Shown here: positions 47,436-49,912 of the stretch, piece by piece | How positions within the stretch are numbered: the stretch's first letter is position 1 | How the letters are laid out: the number at the start of each line of letters is the position of its first letter | Assembly (NCBI RefSeq): GCF_000014745.1 | Contig: NC_008347.1 | Coordinates: 558,001 to 622,000, forward strand | Length of the DNA stretch: 64,000 nt | Source: Maricaulis maris MCS10 | GTDB taxonomy: Bacteria; Pseudomonadota; Alphaproteobacteria; Caulobacterales; Maricaulaceae | Direction: 5' to 3' | Made by a program: the position numbers and the translations under genes | Notes under the pieces: model-generated | What the model saw: only the letters and a program-made list of their open reading frames with translations | Databases searched by the model: none | What the model was told of the DNA's origin: nothing

Positions 47436-48062
47436 CTACTGACTGACCCAGACGATCCGGGCCAGCCAGGCGACCTGGGTCAGCGGCAGGGTCAGGGCAG
47501 GTTGCAAGGGGTCGAGCGGAGCAAGCCGAAGCGCCTGGACGGTCTTTTCACTCAACGTCCAGGCCGACCGGCTGCCATCGCGCCGCTGCACGACCACACG
47601 GTCTCCCACACGTGTCGGCGCTTCATGTGACACGACCAGCCGGTCACCGGGCCGGTAGACCGGCAGCATGTGGGTATCCTGAACGGTCAGCGCGAAGGCT
47701 TCTCCCGGTGCCAGGCCGGGGAAAGGAATGGCGTCCCAGTCCGGGCCGGCCGGGTAGCCGGTCGCGTCGAACGGATCCTGTTCTTCTCCGTCTGCCAGTG
47801 CCCGAGAGGGCAGAGCGCCCGTGCGCGGCTGACCTGAGATCAGACCGGCAAAATCATCGAAATCGAGATGGGCGGCAGCCAGCGCCTTGGCGATGCTTTC
47901 CGTCGATGGCCAGCGCGGCTTGGTGCCATCCGCCGAGATCCGTTTGGAGGGGTTGAAAGTGGTCGAGTCGAGCCCCGCGCGCCGGGCCAGACCGGACGGG
48001 CTGGTCTGCGCGTGCCGGGCCAGGCGGTCGATCCCGCGCCAGATGTCGTCATGGGTCAGCAT
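47436..48062 (-). CDS. S24/LexA-like transcriptional regulator lacking the protease dyad
   Basis: The 208-residue protein matches the alphaproteobacterial family of HTH plus S24 regulators: N-terminal helix-turn-helix (SPSGLARRAGLDSTTFNPSKR, about 21-41) and a C-terminal S24-like domain (about 110-205) ending ARIVWVSQ. In active family members the nucleophile Ser stands in GDSMxPVYRxGD; here the sequence is QDTHMLPVYRPGD, with His131 in its place. The Lys normally in the AK pair is Trp168 in SAWTL. The protein should therefore be unable to cleave itself and may be a constitutive or ligand-controlled repressor. A palindrome lies 12 bases upstream of its start. Confidence 0.88.
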   Translation of the reverse strand: MLTHDDIWRGIDRLARHAQTSPSGLARRAGLDSTTFNPSKRISADGTKPRWPSTESIAKALAAAHLDFDDFAGLISGQPRTGALPSRALADGEEQDPFDATGYPAGPDWDAIPFPGLAPGEAFALTVQDTHMLPVYRPGDRLVVSHEAPTRVGDRVVVQRRDGSRSAWTLSEKTVQALRLAPLDPLQPALTLPLTQVAWLARIVWVSQ

Positions 48063-48073
48063 CGGTCTGAAAC

Positions 48074-48091
48074 GGTATAGGAAAACTATCC
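48074..48091. promoter_or_regulatory. Imperfect palindrome next to the S24-type regulator start
   Basis: GGTATAG-GAAAA-CTATCC is an inverted repeat with one extra T in the left arm, starting 12 bases before the regulator start. It is the best candidate operator for the regulator. Its right arm lies within the left copy of the 46-bp direct repeat. Confidence 0.55.
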
Positions 48092-48127
48092 CATGCGCGA
48101 GTCGCCCTTGCCCGAATCCGCGGTGGG
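48082..48127 (+). repeat. 46-bp direct repeat, left copy
   Basis: The sequence from AAAACTATCCCATGCGCGAG through CCGCGGTGGG is identical over all 46 bases to 49492-49537, exactly 1,410 bases away. The flanking bases differ on both sides. Confidence 0.97.
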
Positions 48128-48140
48128 ATTGTGGCCGTAG

Positions 48141-48269
48141 TCATGGCGGAAAAACAAGCAAGCCCAAGGCATCAGCGATGTCGAGCGCCGCGACAACATC
48201 CTGCGTGGTGCCGAGGGCAAGCGCCTGACCTATCGGCGGACTGCTCAACCCCACGGTGCCGCCGCTTGA
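48141..48269 (+). pseudogene. Possible 3' fragment of a gene at the left end of the cassette
   Basis: A 42-codon frame directly follows an in-frame stop and has no start codon of its own. It reads like the C-terminus of a real protein (ISDVERRDNILRGAEGKRLT), with good codon use, and ends at TGA 48267-48269. I cannot name the parent. It may be the truncated end of a gene carried in with the cassette. Confidence 0.3.
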
Positions 48270-48356
48270 GGGGCAGCGCTTCTTAAACTGGCGAAGGCAC
48301 TGATTCACCGCCGAAAACGTTCATGTTGCGTTCCGCGAAGAATCCGGTCGAAATAG

Positions 48357-48391
48357 ATACGCCCGCACGGCTGATTCCCGTGCGGGCGTGT
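48357..48391. terminator. Strong hairpin inside the cassette
   Basis: ATACGCCCGCACGG (48357-48370) pairs with 48378-48391 around the loop CTGATTC, a 14-bp stem with one G-T pair. No T tract follows on either strand, so it may be a terminator-like or RNA-processing structure, or a recombination hairpin. The remainder of 48270-48490 holds no gene that I can support. Confidence 0.5.
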
Positions 48392-48490
48392 ATGCAACCG
48401 CCGGAGAGCGGTAGTCGTGATCACGGAACGTGTATGAGTCAAATCCCGAGTCGCGTCAACCGATCTCCGGCATGGTCACGGAGATAGAAA

Positions 48491-48682
48491 ATGACCAATC
48501 CTCCCCCCTACCGTCTCACCTTCGCAGACGCCATCGAAGTATGGCTGATGCACTGGGACAAAAACCACCAACACAACATTGCGGCGCACTTCGGTGTGAA
48601 CTCTGGACGCATCAATGATGTGGTCAAGGAACGCATTCACATTGGGTCGCGCGAAGCGGCGCTGATGAAAAAGTCGGCTTAG
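48491..48682 (+). CDS. Small helix-turn-helix protein in the cassette
   Basis: The 63-residue protein contains a predicted helix-turn-helix, HNIAAHFGVNSGRINDVVKE, followed by HIGSREAAL, a pattern seen in small phage-like DNA-binding proteins. GGAG lies 7 bases before the ATG. It could regulate the cassette genes or take part in recombination as an accessory factor. The gene lies between the gene fragment and the HEPN-like gene on the same strand. Confidence 0.7.
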   Translation: MTNPPPYRLTFADAIEVWLMHWDKNHQHNIAAHFGVNSGRINDVVKERIHIGSREAALMKKSA

Positions 48683-48817
48683 TCTGACTTGGGGGCCGGG
48701 CGCTTGTCGCCCGGCTTCTGATCATGCGGCTGCGGCGGCGTCTCTAGCATCCGCTTAAGCGCCGCGTCCCTGAATCGGGTGGCTTCTTTAGCTTCCCTGT
48801 CATCGCTTGAGGGCATC

Positions 48818-49426
48818 ATGACACCAAATTTCCCAGATTGCGATCTTGACTTAATCCCGACTGAAATAGACGACAACACACTAGCTGCTATCGGCCGATT
48901 AGTTATCGGATTTGCAGACATTGAAGATGCCATCACACTCTTCATTATGAAACTTATGAAGCTCAATGAGTCCCATGCCCACGTCCTCATTGGCCCAGTT
49001 GGTATATCTAAACGGATCCAGATCGCAACTAGCTTAGCGCTTCTGACAGACCCAGAGGCCCACAAATTTCTCAAAAGCACATTCCAAGGCAATAACTGGA
49101 ATACAGCAAAAAAGATGCGTGATTGCGCCGCTCACGGGCTGGTGGTTGGCCAAAATAAACCGGGATTCGTGACGTTCCGAATGACCAATTTAGTGGATTC
49201 AGATGAGAACCAAGCCATGTTCTCCGCGCACTCATACCCAATGAAACAATTTTCAACGGTTGCGGCTGACGTCTCTAATTTTGTCCCGAGCCTGCGAGAA
49301 CACCTCGGCGTAGCAACGCTGCATTCAAAGCGTCTTCAAGGCTCTCTTGTGCCGCGCCAAAAGGGTCGCCGCAAAGCATCGCCGGACCCAAGGTCCCCCA
49401 AGCCGCCTCGATCATCTCCGGCGTGA
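48818..49426 (+). CDS. HEPN-like hypothetical protein
   Basis: The 202-residue protein starts with helical segments (TLAAIGRLVIGFADIEDAIT) and contains KKMRDCAAHGL, where Arg101 and His106 give the R-x4-H motif of HEPN ribonucleases and related RN-x-x-AHG proteins. The first 165 residues are encoded by AT-rich DNA unlike the chromosome. The last 35 residues are Arg/Pro/Ser-rich and overlap an antisense gene, so the biological C-terminus is uncertain. ATG 48818 follows GAGGGC; a GTG at 48779 is less likely. A toxin or abortive-infection role is inference. Confidence 0.7.
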   Translation: MTPNFPDCDLDLIPTEIDDNTLAAIGRLVIGFADIEDAITLFIMKLMKLNESHAHVLIGPVGISKRIQIATSLALLTDPEAHKFLKSTFQGNNWNTAKKMRDCAAHGLVVGQNKPGFVTFRMTNLVDSDENQAMFSAHSYPMKQFSTVAADVSNFVPSLREHLGVATLHSKRLQGSLVPRQKGRRKASPDPRSPKPPRSSPA

Positions 49427-49478
49427 TATCAATCTCTGTTATAGTGTCTTTTTCGGGAATCATCGGCTGTTCAGTCAT
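49275..49478 (-). CDS. Small acidic protein antisense to the HEPN-like gene end
   Basis: The 67-residue acidic protein reads TEIDITPEMIEAAWGTLGP near its start, a pattern common in small phage and mobile-element proteins (ITPEMIEAA). Its 3' part overlaps the last 152 bases of the HEPN-like gene on the other strand. It might be an antitoxin partner, but convergent overlap is unusual for toxin-antitoxin pairs, so that is only a possibility. Confidence 0.5.
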   Translation of the reverse strand: MTEQPMIPEKDTITEIDITPEMIEAAWGTLGPAMLCGDPFGAAQESLEDALNAALLRRGVLAGSGQN

Positions 49479-49491
49479 CTAAACAATCCCC

Positions 49492-49537
49492 AAAACTATC
49501 CCATGCGCGAGTCGCCCTTGCCCGAATCCGCGGTGGG
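49492..49537 (+). repeat. 46-bp direct repeat, right copy
   Basis: This copy is identical to 48082-48127 and ends 15 bases before the DUF952 gene start. It carries the CTATCC half of the palindrome found at the left copy, but not the GGTATAG half. An ATG within both copies opens only short frames. Confidence 0.97.
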
Positions 49538-49552
49538 GGTTAGGCCCTCCTC

Positions 49553-49912
49553 ATGACGACAAAAACAGCCTTTCGCCTCGCCACGCCCGACCGCTGGTCG
49601 GAAGTGATGGCCGCAGGGTCTTTCGCCGGTGACCCGCATGATGTGGCTGACGGTTTCATCCACCTGTCCGCCGCCGACCAGGTAGAGGGCACGCTCGTCA
49701 AACACTATAATGATCATGAGCGCCTGTTGCTGGTCGAGATTGATCTGTCGGCCCTGGGCGAAACGGTGGTCTGGGAAAAATCGCGCGGTGGCGCATTATT
49801 CCCGCATGTCTATGGCGAGATACCGGTCAGCGCCGTCCGCGGCATGCGCCATGTCCGCCGCAATGAGGAGGGCGACTGGATCCTCCCCGCAGACCTGGAG
49901 AGCCGCTCATGA
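49553..49912 (+). CDS. DUF952 family protein
   Basis: The 119-residue protein belongs to the conserved DUF952 family, marked by DGFIHLSAADQVEGTL, EIDLSALGETVVWEKSRGG and FPHVYGEIPVSAV. The function is unknown; the fold is related to ADP-ribosyl-type small domains. The stop overlaps the pyrD start (ATGA), an arrangement common in alphaproteobacteria, so the two are co-translated. Its promoter region was altered by the direct-repeat cassette. Confidence 0.93.
   Translation: MTTKTAFRLATPDRWSEVMAAGSFAGDPHDVADGFIHLSAADQVEGTLVKHYNDHERLLLVEIDLSALGETVVWEKSRGGALFPHVYGEIPVSAVRGMRHVRRNEEGDWILPADLESRS

Follow-up and report, generated by a model that had tools for sequence, protein, structure and literature searches.

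Perfect 46-bp direct repeats around a probable defective IS1595-family transposon in Maricaulis maris MCS10

How does a small piece of DNA with no integrase of its own come to lie between two long and perfect direct repeats within a promoter region? The question is raised by a locus of Maricaulis maris MCS10 (assembly GCF_000014745.1, a genome of one contig, NC_008347.1, of 3,368,780 bp), situated within positions 558,001–622,000 of the forward strand; this stretch of 64,000 nt is the window that was analysed here, and coordinates refer to it throughout. Two identical 46-mers stand in direct orientation between a gene for a Peptidase_S24-type repressor and a gene for a DUF952 protein, with 1,410 bp from start to start, and enclose 1,364 bp of DNA with a GC content of 0.539 (0.499 in its HEPN-like gene) compared with 0.628 for the window. 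They were the sole exact direct repeat of at least 30 bp when the window was scanned for direct repeats. An earlier note on this DNA had described the repeats, their positions and the deviating composition of the insert just as we find them, and had interpreted the whole as a non-autonomous cassette mobilized by a host or helper recombinase. The insert is indeed foreign, now non-autonomous mobile DNA placed in an existing promoter region; the attachment-site and recombinase mechanism was not borne out, the right-hand junction being an IS1595-type end beside an 8-bp target. We consider it very probable that the insert is a defective transposon of the IS1595 family which inserted at AAAACTAT and is now expected to be immobile, a judgement that covers the insertion and the present immobility and is separate from the question of how the left side was remodelled.

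Transposon features of the insert

At the right-hand junction, read on the minus strand, the insert ends in the inverted repeat (IR) GGGGATTGTTTAGATGAC, which compares with GGGGATTATATACTTGAC and its relatives in complete elements and has GTTCAGTCA in common, in register, with the end of a transposon from Marinicauda salina WD6-1. This end agrees with the conserved part of the IR consensus at 10 of 14 positions, a score reached at 9 of the 127,972 strand-positions of the window, the end itself included. The eight bases that follow it, AAAACTAT, resemble the 8-bp duplications of the IS1595 family in being rich in A and T; excerpts of the literature describe 8-bp duplications made by these elements (PMC8101967, in part) and A/T-rich 8-bp repeats with GGGGCTGT.. 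ends (PMC12561309, in part). The same eight bases are present on both sides of the insert, although at the left 38 bp of flank sequence lie between them and the element. The native target is the one match in the 64-kb window to TAGG-N8-CC[CT][AC], a pattern that was written after the sites had been seen.

Near the left side, the C-terminal remnant of a transposase is preserved. A tblastn search with the piece at 48141–48266 (plus strand) gave as its best match (E 0.01, 56% identity) an IS1595 transposase interrupted by IS256 on a Bradyrhizobium plasmid, and among the matches listed those to proteins annotated as IS1595 family transposase had E values of 0.1–2. At the DNA level, positions 48168–48274 (107 bp) have 78.5% identity with the Marinicauda salina WD6-1 element (loci L074, L126 and L127), and 19 of 25 residues are identical in a hand-chosen block of the transposase, ISDVERRDNILRGAEGKRLTYRRTA; the Marinicauda salina transposase itself matches NF033547 (transpos_IS1595) with E 9.3e-62. 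Because what is left is the extreme C-terminus, with homology fading between 48153 and 48168, the remainder of tnpA is gone. The insert had been said to encode neither integrase nor transposase: an integrase is absent, and a transposase remnant, ending at 48269, is present. Since an intact transposase is absent, we class the element as a defective derivative and not as a full IS1595 member. We also expect it to be immobile, because the genome yielded no IS1595-family transposase, with no match to PF12762, and holds no second copy of the insert.

Related elements from other genomes served as a yardstick. A script that was given 17 loci and reports a pair of ends only if 7 or 8 of the 8 flanking bases agree, so that its output is a selected set, paired 12 of them, with 8/8 flanking bases in L055, L057, L059, L080, L081, L117, L118, L119, L120 and L126 and 7/8 in L121 and L058; at this threshold L056 had ends without a target repeat and L122–L125 gave no end pair. 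An earlier end search over 27 loci, many with short flanks, had yielded six credible elements with 8/8 (L055, L060, L061, L063, L069 and L074) and L058 with 7/8. Counts given below for 11 elements refer to the twelve paired loci minus L058. With the IS1595 family the window element shares the transposase C-terminus, a right inverted repeat of the GGGG type, the A/T-rich 8-bp target and the presence of genes behind the transposase, whereas it differs in having no intact transposase, in the loss of its left inverted repeat and in being flanked by repeats of 46 bp and not 8 bp. The Marinicauda salina transposon (L127; also L126 and L074), which measures 2,373 bp between its ends, is like it in the tnpA C-terminus, the basic gene and the GTTCAGTCA of the right end, and further in a HEPN-like gene with the motif RNELAH and a minus-strand open reading frame (ORF) running in from the right end; unlike the window element it is complete, with both inverted repeats and a AATATAAT duplication, adjoins a DnaA-C-like gene and has an ORF of 53 amino acids (aa).

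Members of the IS1595 family that carry passenger genes are known, reportedly from the work of Siguier et al. (2009). In our material, one gene order is common to the Marinicauda element, the Bradyrhizobium plasmid element and the loci in genomes G069 and G085, namely a minus-strand gene for a small basic protein (ALKRMLETPPKPH-like), the HEPN-like gene (motif RNxxxH) diverging from it, and a small ORF that enters from the right end on the minus strand. A profile of the basic gene found 15 places in 101 genomes, of which 8 lie inside delimited IS1595 elements, one is in the window and 6 are elsewhere; when the four places that had supplied rows of the model are set aside, 5 of 11 lie inside. 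The profile matches in 10 of the 11 analysed elements (the exception is L057). An ORF of 130–289 aa with R[ND]xxxH is present in 8 of the 11, compared with a mean of 1.1 and a maximum of 4 in 2,000 shuffles, the motif having been noticed beforehand in four of these eight (L055, L080, L081 and L126). The Bradyrhizobium plasmid element (L055, 2654–6385) is of the same layout, and an IS256-family element splits its transposase gene.

The locus in related genomes shows what preceded the insertion. The neighbourhood of the S24 and DUF952 genes was recovered from each of the 18 other genus genomes in the search, and in every one it lacks the insert. The five closest genomes have a clean empty site with a single copy, e.g. 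TATAGGAAAATTGTCCCATGCGCGAGTCGC..CTTGCCCGAATCCGC, in an intergenic region of 80 or 82 bp, and conserve the target as TATAGGAAAA.T.TCCC. The region measures 92–130 bp in eleven further genomes, and 462 and 478 bp, with different DNA, in two (G008 and G018). The earlier placing of the insert in an existing promoter region is upheld, as are the precise empty sites that a search of relatives had been proposed to look for, so that the refuting case named in the note, related strains all carrying the insert, did not arise; such sites are expected of a cassette with attachment sites and are equally true of any transposon insertion. Compared with the site in three of the closest relatives, the 46-mer differs at 5–7 of 46 positions, and the differences are the same in both copies, which places the origin of the repeat within this lineage, unless gene conversion has kept the copies alike. 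Two genomes of the genus other than that of the window carry some 380 bp of additional DNA with hairpins in this intergenic region (L008, 1849–2326; L012, 1849–2310); no Rfam match was found inside it, and a repeat scan of L008 detected no long flanking repeat.

Origin of the 46-bp repeats

At the left side AAAACTAT leads into the 38 bp (CCCATG...GGTGGG) that also follow it at the right, and damaged transposon DNA begins after these; the 46 bp can accordingly be written as 8 + 38. The evidence supports a first step in which a transposon would have inserted into TAGG-AAAACTAT-CCCA between the S24 repressor and DUF952 genes, duplicating the 8 bp AAAACTAT, with the layout IR, tnpA, small genes, basic gene (minus strand), HEPN-like gene (plus strand), acidic gene (minus strand), IR. 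We infer that the left end was remodelled in a second step: repair or replication may have stalled at the left target copy and resumed on its identical 8-bp counterpart at the right, by the slippage that begins precise excision. The 38 bp of right-hand flank would then have been copied before rejoining with the DNA of the transposon, and either this remodelling or a later event would have removed most of tnpA along with the left inverted repeat. The outcome would be 46 identical bases on each side, and each host gene would keep its upstream region. We lean, by a small degree, towards this particular route, an aborted precise excision with copying, of which no intermediate has been seen. The third step, again supported, would leave the element immobile and at most expressing its passengers. 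If 8 bp were duplicated and 38 bp are copied flank, then a length of 46 bp no longer speaks against a target duplication. What appeared to be a new recombinase-free cassette becomes explicable as an 8-bp transposon scar enlarged to 46 bp, and a small insert between long, perfect direct repeats is not necessarily one with attachment sites.

The left junction itself can be read in more than one way. The bases GGGATTGT, formed by the last GGG of the left repeat and the first bases of the insert, equal the start of the right inverted repeat, and may represent a microhomology used in rejoining or a remnant of the left end, or may have been left by a single wide-stagger insertion. Of the 14 insert bases that begin at 48128, 6 agree with the IR consensus. 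Beyond the perfect 46-mer, a likeness to the DUF952 start region continues in register, 48128–48159 being identical to 49538–49569 at 20 of 32 positions, which has a probability of 5e-5 for random pairs but of 0.007–0.01 by gapped local alignment.

A number of observations tell against our interpretation. IS1595 does not make 46-bp repeats, and no second example of such a scar was found with the end script, which compares only the 8 bases next to the ends and would miss a displaced copy like that at the left end of the window element. The transposase remnant is shorter than 40 codons. The left inverted repeat is unrecognisable beyond 8 bp, so that neither a matching pair of ends nor an immediately flanking 8-bp duplication is demonstrable here, and the copying model leaves the DUF952-like filler unexplained, given the perfect 46 bp that adjoin it. 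The looser pattern AGG-N8-CC[CT] has 17 matches in the window. As to the passengers, there are basic-gene places outside delimited elements (G052:C2, G056:C1:1458109, G064:C8, G020:C74, G030:C3 and G046:C1, the last with stops); L120, L059 and L057, three of the 11 elements, have no R[ND]xxxH ORF; and HEPN-profile matches outside the rows of the profile adjoin an IS1595 transposase in one of ten places (G090:C31:1460), which, since most are away from transposases, means that the HEPN-like family is not exclusive to IS1595 transposons. The window HEPN-like protein is only 15–21% identical to its counterparts, and two HEPN structure models were unusable, with mean predicted local distance difference test (pLDDT) scores of 36 and 33.

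The remaining explanations differ in how much of this evidence they accommodate. An insertion in one step with a wide stagger would also be of the IS1595 type and would differ from the scheme above only in its second step: the transposon ends would join the target strands independently, 43–46 bp apart, gap repair would give a target duplication of 43–46 bp, and a later internal deletion would remove most of tnpA and all but the first 8 bp of the left inverted repeat. We regard this as unlikely. At the junction GGGATTGT matches the first bases of the right inverted repeat as if the left end had been joined exactly there, but an 8-bp match of this sort could be microhomology or chance; the right end lies exactly on a normal-looking, A/T-rich 8-bp target inside TAGG-N8-CC, and IS1595 duplications are of 8 bp both in excerpts of PMC8101967 and in our selected sets of elements. 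Alternatively, one copy could have inserted at AAAACTAT and another, in a different chromosome, about 38 bp further right, with a crossover between them joining their left and right parts. This would yield one target copy plus flank at the left and a normal right end, and repeated insertion at a single locus does seem to occur among related elements. It would nevertheless need two insertions within a region of 80 bp, whereas there is no other copy of the element in the genome and a search of the 18 other genus genomes did not find the HEPN-like protein, which makes this course of events quite improbable.

An integrative cassette with 46-bp attachment sites, the reading of the earlier note, would account for the perfect repeats, the precise empty site and the lack of an integrase inside, and the genome has five matches to PF00589 (tyrosine recombinase) elsewhere, four of them over the cut-off. 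Nothing ties these matches to the 46-mer, however, of which the genome holds two copies and no third (as searched with a 42-bp core and up to three mismatches). No other insert bounded by the 46-mer was seen, metagenomes lying outside the search, and a 27-base core pattern with one base free was absent from the viral_contigs set. The transposase remnant, the inverted repeat, the 8-bp target and passengers common to IS1595 elements all tell against such a cassette, which we think highly improbable. Segmental duplication of the divergent promoter with trapping of unrelated DNA, the other origin that had been considered, fits the promoter-region sequence kept in both copies and the weak similarity that runs 32 bp into the DUF952 start, but is scarcely credible and was rejected because a transposon right end lies exactly at the repeat boundary, where a blind duplication would not place it.

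Table 1. Features of the repeat-bounded insert and its flanks (window coordinates)
Feature	Position	Strand	Details
Flanking host gene, Peptidase_S24-type repressor, 208 aa	47436..48062	-	Pfam PF00717, E 1.7e-9; present in 19/19 genus genomes
Native target site TAGG-AAAACTAT-CCCA	48078..48093	+	Wider context TATAGG-AAAACTAT-CCCATG
Left 46-bp repeat copy	48082..48127	+	8-bp target copy AAAACTAT (48082-48089) and 38 bp of native flank
GGGATTGT, matched in inverted orientation by ACAATCCC at the right end	48125..48132	+	Possible last trace of left inverted repeat
Junction filler	48128..48155	+	Neighbouring 48128-48159 resembles the DUF952 gene start
C-terminal remnant of IS1595-family transposase (..ISDVERRDNILRGAEGKRLTYRRT..)	48156..48269	+	<40 codons; left limit uncertain, about 48153-48168
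Perfect 12-bp hairpin, ACGCCCGCACGG / CCGTGCGGGCGT	48359..48389	+	Between transposase remnant and small HTH-like gene; assigned to no gene
Small HTH-like passenger, 63 aa	48491..48682	+	HTH label from the earlier note; family matches sub-threshold only
Small basic passenger, 46 aa (..ALKRMLETPPQPH..)	48679..48819	-	Divergent from HEPN-like gene, start codons overlapping
HEPN-like passenger, 202 aa, motif RDCAAH	48818..49426	+	Motif aligns with RNxxxH of counterparts
Small acidic passenger, 67 aa (..EIDITPEMIEAAW..)	49275..49478	-	Convergent with HEPN-like gene
Right inverted repeat GGGGATTGTTTAGATGAC (minus-strand reading)	49474..49491	-	Last 18 bases of insert
Right 46-bp repeat copy	49492..49537	+	8-bp target copy AAAACTAT (49492-49499) and native flank
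Flanking host gene, DUF952 protein, 119 aa	49553..49912	+	Pfam PF06108, E 2.7e-29

Passenger genes

The insert contains four small genes (Table 1). Three had been counted before, and the helix-turn-helix (HTH)-like, HEPN-like and acidic genes are all present; the fourth is the 46-codon basic gene on the minus strand. None of the passengers has a match above the cut-off in Pfam, PHROGs, NCBIfam or PADLOC, and the insert DNA has no match in the phage or plasmid sets. Weak matches to PvlArgDC (from an overlapping minus-strand ORF), HCV_NS4b, LCAT, JetA (L080) and a 3-oxoacyl reductase were discounted.

The label HEPN-like, also given earlier, holds as far as the motif RDCAAH and its alignment with the RNxxxH of the counterparts are concerned, the R and H being invariant in a five-row alignment; a credible family-model match is wanting, since Pfam, NCBIfam and PADLOC contain none for the window protein and the HEPN-like profile has no sequence match in PDB. 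The protein thus resembles the HEPN ribonuclease (RNase) superfamily, as described in excerpts of PMC3710099, in its motif of arginine, a polar residue, three further residues and histidine, but differs in that no HEPN model matches it. It keeps the positions of the RNase active-site motif, and the D that follows the R is among the residues named as allowed there in the same excerpts, which set out the motif positions. For the L080 counterpart, matches to HEPN_Cthe2314 (E 0.033) and HEPN_RiboL-PSP (E 0.13) were both below the cut-off, and a match to Cas13c (E 0.019) may be a faint HEPN signal. The roles of the superfamily include genome conflict and defence (PMC3710099, title). Judged by the motif, the protein is most likely an RNase that would act as a toxin or defence gene product, perhaps controlled by its small neighbours.

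Searched as a single sequence, the HEPN-like protein matched in 5 of 101 genomes including its own, the other four with E 6e-4 to 0.007. Two of these matches (G069:C49:409541 and G085:C1:410486) lie directly behind IS1595 transposases that were found independently with PF12762; those in G055 and G086 have internal stops and are likely due to chance. Among 385 genomes of the class, its own included, there was one further weak match (G412, E 7e-4), on a 5-kb contig in whose ORF list no transposase-like ORF was seen on inspection, without a profile test. The protein had no match in phages, plasmids, viral contigs or genome contigs. Its small neighbours vary in how far they can be followed: the basic protein is 63% identical to the Marinicauda salina copy, and the acidic protein aligns with the right-end ORFs of L081 and L080 (28% and 38% identity) and has neither a profile match nor a match in 100 other relatives. 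The HTH-like protein has one weak match in 101 genomes besides itself, no match in viral contigs, and was not found in the Marinicauda salina genome. A basic/HEPN-like pair was also observed at G030:C3:141799–142279 (L122), where no IS1595 transposase or ends were detected nearby; the same genome has a complete element as well.

In excerpts of PMC8101967 the IS1595 family is divided into the groups IS1016, ISPna2, ISH4, IS1595, ISSod11, ISNwi and ISNha5, and IS1595 is described with a single transposase gene. A literature search found no paper that by its title treats HEPN cargo of IS1595, a result that cannot establish the cargo as undescribed; the excerpts of PMC9296519 mention IS1595 and HEPN in unrelated places.

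Insertion sites of the related elements

The related elements show a recurrent choice of site. Six of the 11 (L080, L081, L117, L118, L119 and L126, from six genomes) have homologous flanks with a DnaA-C-like gene, as seen by tblastx of the flanks, the Bac_DnaA_C domain having been tested in two of the six flanks, L080 and L118; L080, L117, L118 and L081 match on both flanks. Beside this gene the elements occur in both orientations, with ATATTTTT in L080 and its reverse complement AAAAATAT in L118, which suggests separate insertions at one and the same site unless an element has been inverted in place. Sites of the form AGG-N8-CCT are occupied by 7 of the 11 elements, namely the six with the DnaA-C flank and L059, and the window target TAGG-AAAACTAT-CCCA is similar to them. 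The possibility that the related elements duplicate 16 bp of target (TAGG-N8-CCTA) was dismissed, as the inner and outer 4-base flanks differ in L119, L126 and L059.

Other features of these elements weaken this general picture. The likeness of L119 and L126 to L080 is confined to the flank that holds the DnaA-C gene; L120, L121, L055 and L057 (4 of 11) are not in AGG-N8-CCT sites; the terminal GGGG of the window element is unlike the CCTA/CCCA ends of elements in such sites; and both of the analysed elements that end in GGGG (L055 and L057) lie outside them. We put forward only tentatively, and with rather less confidence than we have in the proposed remodelling of the left end, the idea of an alphaproteobacterial IS1595 lineage with a conserved, possibly addictive or defensive basic–HEPN module, often accompanied by a small right-end ORF, that would be unusually site-selective. 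Its sites would be palindromic, operator-like AGG-N8-CCT sequences with an A/T-rich core before DNA-binding regulators, used repeatedly and in both orientations beside a DnaA-C-domain gene and, in the window, before the S24 repressor. The window insert itself is very probably a defective representative of a familiar kind of element. Its scar is instructive, and it leads on to an HEPN-carrying lineage of transposons that may be site-selective. The comparisons point to HEPN-type RNase genes as recurrent IS1595 passengers and to the DnaA-C-domain gene as a repeated insertion site.

Two minor observations concern structure in the DNA of the locus. Rfam gave no match within 48000–49700 of the window, and the perfect hairpin at 48359–48389 is terminator-like when read on the minus strand.

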